Shown here: positions 46,396 to 57,444 of the stretch, piece after piece
Layout: every line of letters starts with the position of its first letter
Numbering within the stretch: position 1 is the stretch's first letter
Notes under the pieces: model-generated
Database searches by the model: none
Seen by the model: the letters and a program-made list of their open reading frames with translations, nothing else
What the model was told of the DNA's origin: nothing
Source: Pseudomonadota bacterium
GTDB lineage: Bacteria > Pseudomonadota > Alphaproteobacteria > Sphingomonadales > Sphingomonadaceae
Length of the DNA: 64,000 nt
Assembly (NCBI GenBank): GCA_021847605.1
Contig: JAJZQN010000012.1
Coordinates: 1 to 64,000 of the forward strand
Direction: 5' to 3'
Program-made: the position numbers and the translations under genes

Positions 46396-49300
46396 TTACC
46401 CATAGCCCCCGCCGCCCGGCGTCTCGATAACGAAGACGTCGCCCGGTTCCAGCGCTGCGCCATCGGTGGAACCGAGCGTTTCAATGCGTCCGTCCGCCCG
46501 CTCCACCCGGTTGCGGCCGACATCGCCAGGCGCGCCACCCGCAAGGCCGAAGGGCGGCACGATGCGCCGGTTGGACAGGATGCCCGCCTGCATCGATTCG
46601 AGGAAGCGGACGCGGCGCAGGCCGCCGTCGCCGCCGCGATGCCGCCCGGTCCCGCCCGATCCGGCGCGAATCGAAAATTCCTCCAGCAGGACGGGGAAGC
46701 GGCTTTCCAATATTTCGGGGTCGGTCAGGCGGCTGTTGGTCATGTGCGTCTGAACCACGGGCGCGCCATCATAATCCGGCCCCGCGCCCGATCCGCCCGC
46801 GATCGTCTCATAATATTGGTGGCGGTCATTGCCGAAGGTGAAATTGTTCATCGTCCCCTGTGCGCCCGCCATGACGCCCAGCGCGCCGAACAGGGCGTCG
46901 GTGACGACCTGACTGGTTTCCACATTGCCCGCGACCACGGCGGCGGGATGACGGGGACGCAGCATCGATCCTTCGGGGACGAGGATGGAGATGGGCTTGA
47001 GGCAGCCGTCATTCATCGGCACAGCTTCGTCGATCAGGGTCCGCACGACATAGAGGACGGCGGCGCGCACGACCGAAAGCGGGGCGTTGAAATTGCCGGG
47101 AAGCTGATCCGACGACCCGGAGAAATCGATGGTGGCAGAGCGATGCTGACGGTCGAGCGTCACGCGGACGCGCACGGTCGCGCCATCGTCCATCGCATAG
47201 CGGAATTCACCATCGGACAGGTTGCCGATCAGGCGGCGCACGGCGGCCTCCGCCTGATCCTGCACATGGCCCATATAGGCAGCGACCATAGCCGTGCCGT
47301 AAAGGGCGCTGATGCGGTGCAATTCGCTCGCCCCTTTGGCGCAGGCGGCGATCTGGGCCGACAGGTCGGCGATATTCTGATCGATGTTGCGCGCGGGCCA
47401 TGGGCCGGAACCGAGCAGGGCGCGAATGTCGCCTTCGCGGAAATCGCCGCGATCCACCACCAGCAGATTGTCGAGGATGATCCCCTCTTCCTCCACCGAG
47501 CGGCTGTTCGGCGGCATGGAGCCGGGGGTGATGCCGCCAATATCGGCATGATGACCGCGCGCCGCGACGTAGAAGGACGGGGCGGCATCCTGCCCATCGA
47601 CAAAGACCGGCATGACGACGGTCACGTCGGGCAGATGCGTGCCGCCGTCATAGGGCGCGTTGAGCGCATAGACGTCGCCCGGCTGCATGCCGCGCCCGTC
47701 GATCGGCGCGCCGTCATCGCCTGTGCCACGTCGTCGCATGATGGTGCGGATGCTGTCGCCCATGCTGCCCAGATGCACCGGCATATGCGGGGCGTTCGCG
47801 ACCAGATTGCCCGCCGCGTCGAATAGCGCGCAGGAAAAATCGAGCCGTTCGCGAATATTGACGGAGGAAGCGCTGTTCTGAAGCGCGGCGCCCATTTCCT
47901 CGGCAATGGCCATAAACAGCCCGCCCATCACCTCCAGCCGGACCGCATCGACGGCATGCGCGTCGCCACTGTCGGGTTTGGGTCGGGGGATATGGCGAGT
48001 GAGGATGAGGTTGCCGATGGCGTCGATGCGCGCACGCCAGCCCGGCTCGACCGCCGTGGTGGACACAGGATCGATGATCAGTGCAGGCCCGTCAATCAGG
48101 CTGTCGGCGGACAGGCCGGCACGGTCGTGGACAGGCGCATCCTGCCCCGCATAATCGACCTGCGCGGCCGGTGGCGCGGCCTGTGCCGCGATCTGCACGA
48201 TGTCCTCCATCGCTTCGCGCGTGTCGGCGATCGCCTCCACCCGGATCATGTCGATCAGAACGGCGCCCTTGCCATCGAAGCCGAAACGGGCGCGATGCTG
48301 CGCTTCGAAATCGGCGCGCATCGCGCCTTCCGGTCCCAGCGGGACGTCGAACAGGCTGTCGGTCCCCGCATGGCGCAACCGGGCCATGATCTCCACCCTG
48401 TCGGCATCGGGCAGGTCGGCGCGCACCTCATCGCTCAGGGCAGCGACGGCGCGATCCACCTCGTCCTGCGCCTCCCCACCCAGCGGCAGAGCCAGCGTGC
48501 GTTCGCGCACCGCGCGGCGATCGGCCAGACCCATGCCATAGGCGGACAGGACGCCGCCCAGCGGATGGATCATCACCCGATCCATGCCCAGCGCATCGGC
48601 GACGAGGCAGGCATGTTGCCCGCCCGCCCCACCGAAGCTGGCGAGCGTATAGCGCGCCACATCATGGCCGCGCGCGACGGAGATGCGCTTGATCGCATTG
48701 GCCATGCTGGCGACGGCGACGGCGATGAAGCCCTGCGCCGCGTCACGCGGGGTCATGATGCGGCCGGTGTCACGCTCCACCTGCGCGCAGATGTCGGCAA
48801 AGCGCGCCTCGACCGCCGCAACGTCCAGCGGCTGATCGCCGTTCGGGCCGAACAGGCTGGGGAAGAAAGCGGGCTGTATCTTGCCCAGCATGACGTTGCA
48901 GTCGGTGATGGTCAGCGGTCCGCCACGCCGATAGCAGGCCGGCCCCGGCACCGCGCCCGCGCTTTCCGGGCCGACACGAAATCGCCCATCGACGAAGGAA
49001 CAGATGGAGCCACCGCCCGCCGCGATAGTATGTATCCGCATCATCGGCGCGCGCAGCCGCACGCCCGCCACCTTCGCCTCATTGTCGCGCTCATAGGCGC
49101 CGGCATAGTGCGAGACGTCGGTCGACGTGCCGCCCATGTCGAAACCGATGACTTCGCCGAAACCGGCCTGCTCCGCCGTACGGGCAAGGCCAACGATGCC
49201 GCCTGCCGGGCCGGACAATATGGCATCCTTGCCCCGGAACAGATCGCCACTGGTCAGGCCACCGCTCGACTGCATGAACAGCATGTCCGCCCGCTCGCCC

Positions 49301-49971
49301 AGCGCGGCACGCAGGCCACCGACATAGGCACGCAGCACGGGCGAGAGATAGGCGTCGGCCAGCGTCGTGTCGCCACGCCCGATCAGGCGGATGAGCGGCG
49401 CGACGTCATGGCTGGCGCTGATCTGGGTGAAACCGATGTCGGCGGCGATGGCGGCAATCCGTCGTTCATGGTCGGGATAGCGATAGCCGTGCATCAGCGC
49501 GATCGCGACGGCGCGCAGTCCACGGTCATAAGCGGCCTGCAAGGCGGCGCGGACGGCGTCCTCATCCAGCGAGCGCAAGATCGTGCCGTCGGCCATGATC
49601 CGCTCGTCCATTTCGGCGACTTCGGCATGGAGAGGATCGGGCAGACGGATCGCGCGGGCGAACAGATCGGGCCGTTCCTGCGTGCCGATGCGGATAGCGT
49701 CGCGAAAACCGCGCGTGATCGCCAGCAGCACAGGCTCACCCTTGCGTTCCAACAGGGCGTTAGTGGCGATGGTGGTGCCGATGCGCAGCGCACAGGATGG
49801 AATTGCTCCCTTACCTGCCCCCGTCAACCGGCGCACCGCCTCCACCGCGGCATCGGCATAGCGTTCCGGGTCGCTCGACAGCAATTTTACGGTGTGCAGC
49901 CGCCCGTCGGGGTCACGCGCCACCACATCGGTAAAGGTGCCGCCACGGTCGATCCAGAATTGCCAGTCCAT
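46396..49971 (-). CDS. fused hydantoinase A/B (5-oxoprolinase family)
   Basis: 1191 residues from ATG 49971 ([20 protein letters not shown]). HyuA-type N-terminal half: an actin-like ATP site with [45 protein letters not shown] and [18 protein letters not shown]. HyuB-type C-terminal half from about residue 690: [58 protein letters not shown], and a Gly-rich end. Full-length single-chain layout as in 5-oxoprolinase, which opens 5-oxoproline to glutamate using ATP. Hydantoin or related amides are alternative substrates. Confidence 0.92.
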
Positions 49972-50083
49972 GGGCCGGGTGATGGCGGGCGCGAACGGAA
50001 TTGGCAAGCGGACGCCGTACGGCAATTGTAGTGATGCGGATGTTTACCGTTTCGATTATGAACCATTTTACCGATCAGGGTTA

Positions 50084-50412: not shown

Positions 50413-52284
50413 ATGAGAGGCGGCATGCCCGCCATGCGTCCCGAACGTTCCGTCATTCTGCTCTTTGCCGCGTTGCTGACCTTGCTGGTCGCGGCGAGCG
50501 GCACCTATTGGCTGTATCGGAGCCAGCAGGACAGTGCGCGATGGATCACCCATACGCTGCGGGTGGAAAATCGCCTGTCTACCTTGCTCTCTCAGGTACA
50601 GGCCGCAGAAAGCAGCCAGCGCGGTTTTCTGCTGACGCGCGAACCGGAATTTCTGGTCCCCTATAATGAGGTGAAGGACCAGTGGGTCGCCAGTATTGCG
50701 ACCCTGCGCAACGAGGTGCGCGACAATCCGCCACAGGCACAGGCGGTCGATATTCTCAGTCGCATGATCACCCGTCGCATGGACCAGATGCAGGTCGGCA
50801 TCGACCGGCAACGCATGGGGCGGCGTGTCGACAATATTCTGATCGCGCGCGGATATAAGATGATGTCCGAAATCCGTGGCCATGTTGCCGCGATGAAGGC
50901 GCGCGAAGAACATTTGCTGGCGCAGCGCAGCCGGCATGGCGCTCGGCTCAGCGCGCTGGTATCGAGCGGTATGGCGCTCAGTGCCGCGCTCATCATCCTG
51001 ATGGGCTTCATGGCGCTGCGCACCGCACGCCGCCGCACGCTGGAAGCGGTCGAGGCGGGACGCGCGCTGCGCGCTGCCAATGAGCAGCTGATCGTGGAAG
51101 GGAAAGAGCGGGAAGCCGCGCAGGCCCAGCTGCGTCAGGTGCAGAAGATGGAATCCATCGGCCAGCTCACCGGCGGCATCGCCCATGATTTCAACAATAT
51201 GCTGGCCATCGTCATCGGATCGCTCGACATCGCGCGGCGGCGGCTGGGCGAGGATGGCGACCCGCGCGTCATCAAGGGCATCGACAATGCCGCTGAAGGC
51301 GCGCAGCGCGCCGCGCAACTGACCGCCCGTCTGCTCGCCTTTTCCCGGCAACAGCCATTGGAACCGCACCCCACCGACCTCAACAAGCTGGTCGGTGGCA
51401 TGTCGGAACTGCTGCGCCGGACCATCGGTGAGGATATGCGGGTGGAAACCGTGCTGGCCGGCGGCCTGTGGCGCGCGGCGATCGACCCCAGCCAGCTTGA
51501 AAATGCGATATTGAATCTGTGCGTCAATGCGCGCGATGCGATGCCGGGCGGCGGACGGGTCACGATCGAGACGGCGAACGCGCATCTGGACGACGCCTAT
51601 TGCGCCGCCCATGACGAGGTTTCGCCGGGGCAATATGTAATGGTATCGGTCACGGATACCGGCACCGGCATGCCGCCCGAAGTGGTAGAGCGGGCGTTCG
51701 ACCCCTTCTTTACCACCAAGGGCGTGGGCAAGGGCACGGGCCTTGGCCTCAGCCAGGTATTCGGCTTCATCAAACAGTCGCACGGCCATGTGAAAATCTA
51801 TTCAGAGCCGAGCCAGGGCACGATCATCAAAATGTATCTGCCACGCCATTATGGCGAGGACAGCATCGTGGGCGGCTATGCCGCGCCCGCGCCCGAAACC
51901 CTGCCGCGCGCGCAAGGCGAGGAAATCATCCTGCTGGTCGAAGATGAAGAACGGGTCCGGCACATGTCGGCCGATTCTCTGCGCGAACTGGGCTATACCA
52001 TCGTGCAGGCGTCGGACGGGGAGCAGGCGCTGGCCATGCTGACCATCCAGCCGCGCATCGACATGATCTTCACCGACATCGTCATGCCCGGCATCAACGG
52101 CCGGGTGCTGGCCGACCGCGCGCGCGAAACACGTCCGGACATGAAGGTGCTGTTCACCACCGGCTATACCCGCAACGCCATCGTCCATAACGGCATGCTG
52201 GACCCCGGCGTCGCCTTCCTCGCGAAACCCTTTACGCTCGACCAGTTGGCGGTGAAGGTGCGGCAGGTGCTGGACGGGGAATAG
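50413..52284 (+). CDS. hybrid histidine kinase (CHASE3, HisKA, HATPase, receiver)
   Basis: 623 residues. Helix 1 (about 13-34), a periplasmic CHASE3 sensor (about 40-175, with AAESSQRGFLLTREPEFL), helix 2 (about 183-203), a short coiled linker, the H-box GGIAHDFNNMLA with phospho-His 258, N-box NLCVNARDAMPGGG, G-boxes VTDTGTGMPPEVVE and GKGTGLGLSQVFG, and a C-terminal receiver with LLVEDEERVR and FTDIVMPGING (phospho-Asp). ATG 50425 may be the real start. Sensed signal unknown. Confidence 0.92.
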   Translation: MRGGMPAMRPERSVILLFAALLTLLVAASGTYWLYRSQQDSARWITHTLRVENRLSTLLSQVQAAESSQRGFLLTREPEFLVPYNEVKDQWVASIATLRNEVRDNPPQAQAVDILSRMITRRMDQMQVGIDRQRMGRRVDNILIARGYKMMSEIRGHVAAMKAREEHLLAQRSRHGARLSALVSSGMALSAALIILMGFMALRTARRRTLEAVEAGRALRAANEQLIVEGKEREAAQAQLRQVQKMESIGQLTGGIAHDFNNMLAIVIGSLDIARRRLGEDGDPRVIKGIDNAAEGAQRAAQLTARLLAFSRQQPLEPHPTDLNKLVGGMSELLRRTIGEDMRVETVLAGGLWRAAIDPSQLENAILNLCVNARDAMPGGGRVTIETANAHLDDAYCAAHDEVSPGQYVMVSVTDTGTGMPPEVVERAFDPFFTTKGVGKGTGLGLSQVFGFIKQSHGHVKIYSEPSQGTIIKMYLPRHYGEDSIVGGYAAPAPETLPRAQGEEIILLVEDEERVRHMSADSLRELGYTIVQASDGEQALAMLTIQPRIDMIFTDIVMPGINGRVLADRARETRPDMKVLFTTGYTRNAIVHNGMLDPGVAFLAKPFTLDQLAVKVRQVLDGE

Positions 52285-52505: not shown

Positions 52506-53663
52506 CTAAGCCCAGAATGTTGCCAGCTTCTGCACCGACGCCTCGGCCGCTGCCCGGTCCGGTTCTTCATTGGCGTCGCCATAGCCGAACCATTCGTCCG
52601 TCCCGACATCCTGCACGACGATACCGTCGCGGCGCGCCAGCATGGACAAGCCATCATAATAGACGCCAAAGGTCAGGCCCGGCTGCGGGATGAGCCAGGC
52701 GATCTGCCCACGCACCGGCACGATGCTCTCGTCGCGCCACAAGGCACGCGCGCCATAGCCGGTGCAATGGATGATCGATCGCTGTTTCAGCTTCGTCACA
52801 TCGCCCGGTTCGTGAAATTCCATCGGCACGATCCGCCCGCCCGCAATCAGGAAATCATTGGTGAGTTGGTGCATCAGGTCCGCGACGTTGAAAGTCAGCG
52901 AACTGCTGCGCCGGGCATAAGCGGCGCGGAAGGGATGCGTGCCAGACGGCAGCTCCACGCTGCGCGGCGTGATGTCGCGCAATCGCTGTTCCAGGCGCAG
53001 GAACGTGTCAGGGCGCGGCGGGCCGACCGGCGCATGTTCGGGTCGGCGTCCCTCCCATGGCGCATCCGCCAGAACATAGCGGTCGGTCCATTCGACCGGG
53101 CTGCCGGGCAAACCGAGCAAGCCCTGATAATGCTGGAAAGAAGCACGGGCCATGCTTTCCCAACGGTCGCCAAAACCCGGATCGGCCGCTTTTTCCATCG
53201 CGATCCGGCTGTCGGGCGTCCAGCTTCCCGTCGCGCGGGCGGAACGGACGAGGGGAAATTGCTCCTTGGCATAGATGGTGACGCTGGCCCCGGCACGCTG
53301 CGCCGTCAGCGCCGCCGTCAGGCCCAGCGCGCCCGCGCCGATCACCGCCACGTCATGCACACCGTCGGCCATGGCCATCGCCACCGCAATCTGCGCCGAT
53401 CCCCAACTGAGCGACCAGCCGCTGCCACCATGGCCATAATTATGGACGACGCGCTTGCGGCCCACTTCCTCCACCTCGATGCGGGGTCCGGCGGGGCGGA
53501 AGGGGCGCAGGCAGACGGTTGTGCGAAAGATGCGGTCGACACTCGCCCGAACCGGCTCCACCCCGGCCAGCGGCACGAAGGGTGTCGCCGCACCAGCAAC
53601 ACCCGCCAGCGGCAGCGCACCCATGGTGCCGATGCCGCGTCCCAGAAAAGCCCGCCTGTCCAT
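52506..53663 (-). CDS. Tat-exported D-amino-acid-oxidase-like flavoprotein, circularly permuted
   Basis: 385 residues. N-terminus MDRRAFLGRGIGTMGALPLAG is a Tat signal, so it is probably periplasmic. In ordinary D-amino-acid oxidases the Rossmann GxGxxG is N-terminal, and the segment LRPxRP, then HNYGHGG and the FAD-contacting helix is C-terminal. Here LRPFRP is at 52-57 and HNYGHGGSGWSLSWG at 74-88, both before VIGAGALGLTAAL (107-119). The chain ends soon after GYGARALW and VRGQIAWL (317-324) with no C-terminal copy of those motifs. Substrate unknown. Divergent from the radical SAM gene. Confidence 0.85.
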   Translation of the reverse strand: MDRRAFLGRGIGTMGALPLAGVAGAATPFVPLAGVEPVRASVDRIFRTTVCLRPFRPAGPRIEVEEVGRKRVVHNYGHGGSGWSLSWGSAQIAVAMAMADGVHDVAVIGAGALGLTAALTAQRAGASVTIYAKEQFPLVRSARATGSWTPDSRIAMEKAADPGFGDRWESMARASFQHYQGLLGLPGSPVEWTDRYVLADAPWEGRRPEHAPVGPPRPDTFLRLEQRLRDITPRSVELPSGTHPFRAAYARRSSSLTFNVADLMHQLTNDFLIAGGRIVPMEFHEPGDVTKLKQRSIIHCTGYGARALWRDESIVPVRGQIAWLIPQPGLTFGVYYDGLSMLARRDGIVVQDVGTDEWFGYGDANEEPDRAAAEASVQKLATFWA

Positions 53664-56022: not shown

Positions 56023-57444
56023 ATGCACCGCGTCACGCTGACCGCGCCCGACGATTTTGACGGGTGGCGGGCGGCGGCGCGGCGGTTAGTAGTCGCCGGG
56101 GTCGATCCGGCCGATGTCCTGTGGTCGCTGCCCGATGAGAGTGACGACCTGTTCGGTGCCATGGCCGGTGACGACGATCTGCCACCTGAGCGGGGGAGCG
56201 CGGAATTTTCGGTCCCTCGCGCCTTCGTCGATCTGGCGCAGAGCGCAATCCTGCACCGGGCGCCGGAACGCTTTTCCTTGCTCTATGCGCTGTTGTGCCG
56301 GGTGCGGGCGCGCCCCGGCACAATGGAGGATCGTGCCGATCCGTTGCTGGGCCGGATAGAGGCGCTGGCCAAGACGGTGCGGCGCGACATCCACAAGATC
56401 CGGGCCTTCGTCAGGTTTCGCGCGGTGGAAGACCCGCAAGGTACCCGCTTCGTCGCCTGGTTCGAGCCGGACCATCATATCGTCCGCGCCAATGCAGGCT
56501 TTTTCGCTCGCCGATTTGCAACCATGCGCTGGTCGATCCTGACCCCGGAAATTTCGATCCATTGGGATGGCGACACGTTGCAGGAAGGACCGGGCGCGAC
56601 GCGCGGCGAGGCAGGGCCGGACGAAGACCCGGTGGAGGGGCTGTGGCGCGGCTATTATGCCGCCATCTTCAACCCTGCCCGGTTGAAGACGCGGGCGATG
56701 ATGTCGGAAATGCCGAAAAAATATTGGCGCAATTTGCCGGAGGCATCGCTGATCCCCGAACTGGTCGCGGGTGCGCAGGCCCGCGAAGCGGCGATGATCG
56801 CGACTGCACCGGCATCACCCCGGCGTGCAAATCCGCCGCCATCACAAGCTAAAGACTCTGGCGCTGCATGGCGCGCGCTGCGCGATGCAGCGAAGGACTG
56901 CATCCGATGCCCGCTGCACCGGGACGCGACGCAGATGGTGTTTGGCGAGGGACCGGTCGATGCACCGTTGATGTTTGTCGGCGAACAGCCCGGCGATCAG
57001 GAAGATCTGGCGGGGCGCCCCTTCGTCGGGCCGGCGGGGCAATTGTTCGACGATGCGCTGGCGCAGGCCGGCATCGACCGCAGCCACGCCTATGTCACCA
57101 ACGCGGTCAAACATTTCAAATTTCAATGGCGGGGCAAACATCGCCTGCATCAAGGCCCGAATGCCGGCGAGATCGAAGCATGCCGGTGGTGGCTGGACAG
57201 AGAACGAGCGATCGTGCGGCCGCGCCTGATCGTGGCGTTGGGGGCCAGCGCCGGGCGCGCGATACTGGGCCGGGCGGTCACGATTGCGCGGGTGCGCGGG
57301 CAAGCCATAACGATGGAGGATGGGTCGCAGCTCTGGGTGACGGTGCATCCCAGCTATCTGCTGCGCCTGCCCGATGCGGGGAGGCGTGCGGAGGAGCAGA
57401 CCCGTTTCGTGGAAGATTTACGCCTGGTGGGATCAATGCTCTGA
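56023..57444 (+). CDS. udgX: DUF4130 - UdgX fusion (uracil-DNA-binding protein)
   Basis: 473 residues. N-terminal DUF4130 (about 3-240): FDGWRAAARRLVVAGV, FVRFRAVEDPQGTRFVAWF, PKKYWRNLPEA. C-terminal UdgX (about 280-470): CIRCPLH cluster Cys293/296, FGEGPVDAPLMFVGEQPGDQ, GRPFVGPAGQLFDDAL, NAVKHFKFQWRGKHRLHQGP, Cys387 and VHPSYLLRLP. UdgX proteins form a covalent bond between a loop His and the deoxyribose after removing uracil. The loop KRRIH is KHRLH here, with that His (376) kept. The fourth cluster ligand of family-4 glycosylases is replaced by His364 in the VKHFKF stretch. Partner of the radical SAM protein. Confidence 0.92.
   Translation: MHRVTLTAPDDFDGWRAAARRLVVAGVDPADVLWSLPDESDDLFGAMAGDDDLPPERGSAEFSVPRAFVDLAQSAILHRAPERFSLLYALLCRVRARPGTMEDRADPLLGRIEALAKTVRRDIHKIRAFVRFRAVEDPQGTRFVAWFEPDHHIVRANAGFFARRFATMRWSILTPEISIHWDGDTLQEGPGATRGEAGPDEDPVEGLWRGYYAAIFNPARLKTRAMMSEMPKKYWRNLPEASLIPELVAGAQAREAAMIATAPASPRRANPPPSQAKDSGAAWRALRDAAKDCIRCPLHRDATQMVFGEGPVDAPLMFVGEQPGDQEDLAGRPFVGPAGQLFDDALAQAGIDRSHAYVTNAVKHFKFQWRGKHRLHQGPNAGEIEACRWWLDRERAIVRPRLIVALGASAGRAILGRAVTIARVRGQAITMEDGSQLWVTVHPSYLLRLPDAGRRAEEQTRFVEDLRLVGSML

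Follow-up and report, generated by a model that had tools for sequence, protein, structure and literature searches.

The stretch of DNA analysed here (64,000 nucleotides, hereafter the window) bears on its minus strand a gene for a protein of the DAO family. The whole protein matches the Pfam family PF01266 (DAO, FAD-dependent oxidoreductase) with 90.1 bits, above the gathering cut-off of 27.9, and its close relatives are found mainly in Sphingobium. The gene, the parts of its product and two further genes discussed below are:

52506..53663, minus strand: gene of the DAO-family flavoprotein, very probably circularly permuted (open reading frame and translation; 385 amino acids plus stop, ATG start)
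53586..53663, minus strand: probable Tat signal with MDRRAFLG, residues 1-26 (R3 and R4 invariant in 17 aligned rows; the cleavage point is a guess)
53361..53534, minus strand: relocated segment, residues 44-101, counterpart of the strand-loop-helix at the C-terminus of canonical DAOs (Pfam DAO 301-352; 7ct4 320-371)
53493..53510, minus strand: LRPFRP, residues 52-57 (R53 aligned with pig DAAO Arg283)
53400..53444, minus strand: HNYGHGGSGWSLSWG, residues 74-88, from the translation (G80 aligned with DAAO Gly313)
53322..53339, minus strand: GAGALG, residues 109-114, a GxGxxG dinucleotide-binding motif with its conserved glycines
52509..53354, minus strand: body of the protein, residues 104-385, corresponding to DAO from its N-terminal end to the loop that precedes LRPxRP (Pfam DAO 1-294, bases 52521-53354)
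50413..52284, plus strand: CHASE3 histidine kinase gene (Pfam), with the permuted gene on one side and the hydantoinase gene on the other
46396..50025, minus strand: fused hydantoinase A/B (oxoprolinase-type) gene (Pfam), a possible pathway partner

Circular permutation and DAOs are each well known, and DAAO, of which many structures have been solved, is a textbook flavoenzyme. In canonical DAAO and DASPO proteins the GxGxxG Rossmann motif is N-terminal, while the segment containing LRPxRP and HNYGHGG is C-terminal. In contrast, the window protein carries the latter segment in N-terminal position, with no second copy, and the Rossmann motif, although kept, follows the relocated segment, at residues 109-114. 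An earlier sequence-only reading had placed LRPFRP at residues 52-57, HNYGHGGSGWSLSWG at 74-88 and GAGALG at 109-114, and the translation reproduced these positions exactly. Its statement that the C-terminal end is devoid of the relocated motifs also held: the stretch searched beyond the stop codon (600 bases, all three frames of the gene's strand) contained no second C-terminal segment, and HNYGHG occurs a single time in the whole window.

Profile searches found the two parts of the DAO family in swapped order. Positions 1-292 of Pfam DAO matched residues 104-379 in the protein search, and positions 301-352 matched bases 53379-53537 (about residues 43-95) when the window's genome was searched. 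Against the solved fungal DAAO 7ct4, the protein in native order gave two separate stretches, residues 45-96 on 320-371 (35.4 bits, i-Evalue 5e-08) and residues 103-333 on 24-251 (12.8 bits). When the canonical order was restored, a single stretch of 48.4 bits ran from 27 to 371, as compared with 35.4 for the best native stretch. The best stretch rose from 25.7 to 47.2 bits with human DASPO, and from 20.6 to 31.3 bits with human DAAO 6kbp, in both cases now crossing the junction. The summed scores of these PDB matches stayed nearly flat from native to restored order (51.9 to 52.1 for 7ct4, 44 to 53 for DASPO and 40.4 to 41.3 for 6kbp); chain 9vpf was still matched in pieces, and for DASPO and DAAO the start of the Rossmann part remained a separate weak piece.

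Unpermuted homologues exist (the PDB DAAOs, and loci L146, L153, L155, L159, L160, L161 and L163). The protein was rotated in 5-residue steps (70 rotations, plus a fine scan) and each version compared with a profile built from seven bacterial DAOs of canonical order. In its native form the protein gave two matches in swapped order, one of 64.1 bits (profile 6-208) and the other of 47.0 bits (profile 265-319), for a total of 112.4. Rotation to residue 101, the top of the 70 rotations, gave one stretch of 121.6 bits covering profile positions 8-318, for a total of 122.4; in the fine scan, starts at residues 93 to 104 were all within 1.6 bits of the peak. The gain in the total was thus small, the real change being that the pieces joined into one. 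The peak falls at the join of the relocated helix with the first Rossmann strand, which is the predicted junction. Two swapped native matches that become one full-length match on rotation at one point are what identifies a natural permutant.

An AlphaFold2 model of one chain, built from 16 aligned sequences, was of middling quality (mean pLDDT 69.5, pTM 0.74). Ten-residue pLDDT means were 77-97 over residues 61-140, 53 over residues 51-60 (which include LRPFRP) and 47-63 over residues 311-370. When the model was compared with the PDB using Foldseek, each of the first 33 matches was a DAAO or a DASPO, with a best E of 8.2e-12 and TM-scores of about 0.4-0.5 when normalised by query length. VIA-align placed residues 103-385 of the model on pig DAAO (1kif) 1-268 (Z 17.0, rmsd 3.5, 246 aligned) and residues 101-385 on human DASPO 2-263 (Z 17.7, rmsd 3.7, 251 aligned); the window protein ends at the point where the LRPxRP and HNYGHGG part of DAAO is still to come. 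The superposition on DAAO that had been suggested as a check thus covers the body of the protein, both aligners giving collinear alignments.

A survey of homologues had been suggested as well, and it revealed the permuted order to be a trait of a large family rather than a one-off. All 17 rows of alignment A1 share it. The A1 profile matched 69 of 298 sampled Sphingomonadaceae genomes (E 1e-15), 15 of 385 genomes in a class sample (E 1e-15) and 20 of 398 in a phylum sample (E 1e-10), these three samples overlapping. Two of the 185 genomes of the class of G920 were also matched (E 1e-10); the gene of G1242 is canonical and that of G920 permuted, the latter with a TAG codon that precedes the relocated segment by a few residues. 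Since the A1 profile is biased to permuted matches, the DNA pattern of the motif was searched separately. H[NH]YGHGG gave 69 sites in 68 of the 298 Sphingomonadaceae genomes, against four for the reversed control, and all 69 lay in permuted genes: 29 of the 30 loci fetched were permuted by their spacing and L194 by reading of the sequence, and the remaining sites (39/39) stood near the front of native-order A1 profile matches. For HNYGHGG, 13 sites were obtained in 13 of 289 genomes of the class sample (the window's own included) against four control sites; 12 were in permuted genes and one (L146) in a canonical gene. Among plasmid-collection records, the genes read were permuted in Kozakia, Bradyrhizobium, Rhizobium, Nonomuraea and Mesorhizobium (there as two CDS), and canonical in three Streptomyces records, Nocardia, Tsukamurella and Mycobacterium lentiflavum; a Niveispirillum record matched in native order.

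Altogether, 127 loci with a permuted open frame were collected, 86 of them distinct (representatives differing in the first 200 body residues); the motif pattern missed the permuted genes of L140 and L194. The motif-to-GxGxxG distance was 35 residues in 75 of the 86, 39 in six of rhizobial type, and took other values in five, at least three of which reflect the pattern picking another glycine run. The swapped Pfam match, the rotation peak at the junction, the PDB matches that cross the restored junction, the fold match of the body to DAAO 1-268 and the sharing of the order across a large family all argue for the circular permutation originally proposed, and the window protein is very probably a circular permutant of the DAAO/DASPO fold.

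No phage record matched the window protein. The HNYGHGG pattern found 14 stretches in IMG/VR, three of which hold a permuted DAO (L127, L133 and L136, the contigs of L089, L090 and L091); the other 11 were unrelated proteins or chance frames. At L089:1420-2454 and L090:3895-4983 the permuted gene adjoins a phage-type terminase gene. That of L089 is truncated and lies between terminase-like and portal-like genes (named by eye from their translations), in surroundings that resemble a gene-transfer-agent or prophage head cluster. On plasmid pOM4 of Mesorhizobium onobrychidis (L162:3995-5058) annotation divides the permuted gene into two overlapping CDS, with the break right after GAGVMG; the gene is either disrupted or truly split. 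A divergent permuted DAO from a 1.9 Mb genome (L140 of G488) has a signal-like N-terminus and a longer motif spacing, and keeps a Tyr near the active site (FYIFPK).

A tree was made after rearranging the permuted sequences to canonical order. The alignment contained 85 permuted rows (L048 was skipped for its spacing) and eight canonical ones; after near-copies and the truncated L089 (29 rows together) had been removed by hand, 64 were left, i.e. 56 permuted and 8 canonical, with no outside root. One branch divides the two sets (SH-aLRT 99, quick search), which is consistent with a single origin of the permutation without proving it, given the length of several canonical rows. Among the permuted sequences the rhizobial type is the first to split off, followed by the Tyr-keeping sphingomonad and other forms; the window's type comes next, on a long branch (1.11, support 100), with a cytochrome c subclade inside it. 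The rhizobial and Nonomuraea DAOs (L154, L156, L158, L090, L104 and L105) share the permutation of the window protein but differ from it in having no signal (five of the six), a spacing of 39, and the Tyr228 equivalent and GG kept. The nearest unpermuted relatives examined are canonical bacterial DAOs (L146 of the class sample, L155 from Streptomyces and L160 from Nocardia), in which the HNYGHGG segment is C-terminal. Glycine oxidase ThiO, an enzyme of canonical order, is a weak match to the Rossmann part of the window protein (TIGR02352, 24.2 bits against a cut-off of 250.8).

In human DAAO, Arg283 and Tyr228 hold the substrate carboxylate and Gly313 the amine, according to a passage of PMC6279847. 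These residues were mapped by alignment to pig DAAO at about 20% identity. The Arg283 equivalent, R53, is R in 85/85 permuted and 8/8 canonical rows, and the three GxGxxG glycines are likewise kept in both sets (85/85 and 8/8); the Gly313 equivalent, G80, is kept in all 85 permuted rows, where the HxYGHGG segment is likewise invariant. The Tyr228 position is Ser340 in the window protein. At this position the 85 permuted rows have 36 S, 16 Y, 11 N and 7 A, the rest being other residues, while the eight canonical rows have 7 Y and 1 F. In the printed rows, the Tyr and the GG that follows it are present in the rhizobial type and in complete Y-type rows, and gone in the window's type. The window protein thus has in common with DAAO/DASPO (pig 1kif, human 6rkf, Rasamsonia emersonii 7ct4) the fold, GxGxxG, HxYGHGG and the equivalents of Arg283 and Gly313, and differs from them in its permuted chain, the change of Tyr228 to Ser, a Tat-like signal and an identity of about 20%. 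Ordinary DAAO activity is doubtful because Ser340 takes the place of Tyr228, and the substrate of the window's clade is probably not a standard DAAO one.

Tat export had been proposed along with the permutation. It is supported as a pattern, MDRRAFLG being a twin-arginine motif, with both arginines invariant in A1, that precedes a hydrophobic stretch. A crude pattern detected a Tat-like signal in 75 of the 86 representatives; among the 11 others, five are of rhizobial type and several are cut contigs or failures of the pattern. A lipobox-like cysteine is found in 32 of the 86 and is absent from the window's protein. Directly downstream of the permuted gene, on the same strand, eight of the 86 representatives have a frame with a cytochrome c haem motif (L015, L016, L061, L062, L064, L065, L123 and L157); the seven of these present in the tree form a single clade (support 100). 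In Kozakia (L157) the gap to the downstream gene is 5 bases, and Pfam confirms that gene as cytochrome c. The window's own gene has no cytochrome c gene within 1.5 kb. The adjacent cytochrome c gene in one subclade suggests a periplasmic dehydrogenase.

The Kozakia cluster (L157:1-12048) contains two serine-hydrolase genes, a second DAO-family gene (canonical) and an alpha/beta hydrolase gene, together with the permuted DAO, cytochrome c, a CocE/NonD hydrolase and a TonB receptor; it looks like a cluster for peptide or amide use. In L119 (the L016 genome) and in L123, a RidA-type (L-PSP) gene is located about 3.4 kb away from the permuted gene, with TonB-receptor genes close by; RidA proteins act on imines left after amine oxidation. 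The permuted gene of Bradyrhizobium and Rhizobium is flanked by genes for an FAD-binding oxidoreductase and a TPP-dependent enzyme, and that of Mesorhizobium is followed by a TPP-dependent enzyme gene. For the TPP enzyme of Bradyrhizobium the nearest model is indolepyruvate/phenylpyruvate decarboxylase, whose cut-off it does not reach (207.1 against 554.5 bits). These rhizobial neighbours fit a permuted enzyme that yields 2-oxo acids.

Within the Sphingobium group, a fused hydantoinase A/B gene is found directly downstream of the permuted gene in six of 23 distinct loci (26 less three duplicates; of the 26, 13 hold 1.0-1.5 kb of downstream sequence and one just 94 bases). In the window it lies 2.5 kb further on, past the histidine kinase gene. 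A homologue of this kinase is upstream and divergent in 10 of the 23 distinct loci, and its downstream position in the window would be a local rearrangement. When 54 of 367 called ORFs were examined, only the TonB-receptor and two-component families appeared in more than two; the ORF caller used for gene context is crude in GC-rich DNA.

The best explanation as a whole, in which we place considerable confidence, is a DAO fold permuted in place and serving as an exported oxidoreductase of carboxylated amines. The strand-loop-helix that ends canonical DAOs, with its carboxylate Arg and HNYGHGG, now precedes the first Rossmann strand. The old chain ends would have been joined, the former C-terminal helix leading into beta-1 over a distance that hardly varies, while the new ends would have been opened in the loop before LRPxRP. 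The relocated segment would pack against FAD in its usual place; this appears to be the most economical mechanism, and it agrees with the nearly fixed motif spacing. The enzyme would still oxidise, in an FAD-dependent manner, the carbon-nitrogen bond of a carboxylated amine, and in the window's clade it would be exported by Tat and periplasmic. Taken separately, its being an exported amine or amino-acid oxidoreductase is favoured on balance, and to a similar extent it would be a dehydrogenase in preference to an H2O2-producing oxidase; the cytochrome c clade probably acts as a dehydrogenase.

A different chemistry on the same permuted fold, the window's clade being an ordinary H2O2-producing oxidase or acting on a substrate other than an amino acid, is less probable while still carrying real weight. 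The change of Tyr228 to Ser340, the long branch that leads to the clade, the absence of an adjacent cytochrome c gene from the window and the fused hydantoinase gene near some loci would all fit it, whereas the invariant carboxylate Arg and HxYGHGG segment, and the position of the cytochrome c subclade inside the window's clade, speak against it.

In-place packing has its own competitor, a domain swap in which the chain is permuted and the relocated segment sits on the FAD site of a second subunit, forming an intertwined dimer. This is compatible with the sequence, but we regard it as unlikely: in the one-chain model no more than 6 residues separate helix 86-97 from strand 104-108, and this, like the nearly fixed spacing across the family, fits packing within the same chain. 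The model is consistent with the relocated segment in its usual place, but the collinear alignments covered residues 98-385 only.

That the permuted order is ancestral and the canonical DAO order derived seems very improbable; a tree without an outside root leaves room for it, but Pfam DAO, which covers the wider superfamily, is canonical in order. Glycine and sarcosine oxidases also have the canonical order. A damaged or misassembled gene that lost its C-terminus and by chance acquired a C-terminal fragment at its front has practically no likelihood, gene damage or assembly error being ruled out by the same order with an open frame in the collected homologues, several Sphingobium species and plasmid-collection records among them.

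With the permutation in place as the preferred reading, a history can be sketched that we consider plausible while falling short of probable. One permutation would have founded a separate DAO branch, whose early rhizobial and Nonomuraea members were cytoplasmic and had the active site of DAAO; a later lineage would have acquired a Tat signal ahead of the relocated segment and an altered active site, and would have turned into a dehydrogenase of the periplasm, often lipid-anchored, with amino acids or amines as electron donors and cytochrome c as the acceptor.

The sequence-only reading knew of no description of such a protein, and none of a permuted DAO was found in the open-access full texts searched, as judged from their listings; one may exist elsewhere. 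No amino acid oxidase is named in passages of PMC4432964, and term searches of PMC12667903 and PMC11757225 gave no mention of oxidases or FAD. By the open-access literature searched, the new part is the combination of natural permutation with the DAO family, and this may be described elsewhere. The window protein is very probably a natural permutant with a reordered cofactor-binding core, an order fixed across a large bacterial family whose members are mostly predicted to be exported. Unpermuted relatives, together with permuted ones that have the ancestral active site, form a natural experiment for studying chain order, folding and changes of the active site. The family would also point to an uncharacterised periplasmic use of amino acids or amines in sphingomonads and other Alphaproteobacteria. 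Permuted proteins of this kind get split by collinear searches, and the annotated copies encountered bear only the name 'FAD-dependent oxidoreductase'.

On the other side of the permuted gene, the window contains an adjoining gene for a radical SAM protein (TIGR03916; 53750-55024, plus strand) and, at 56023-57444 on the same strand, one for a fused TIGR03915/UdgX uracil-DNA-binding protein, the two forming a putative DNA repair pair.
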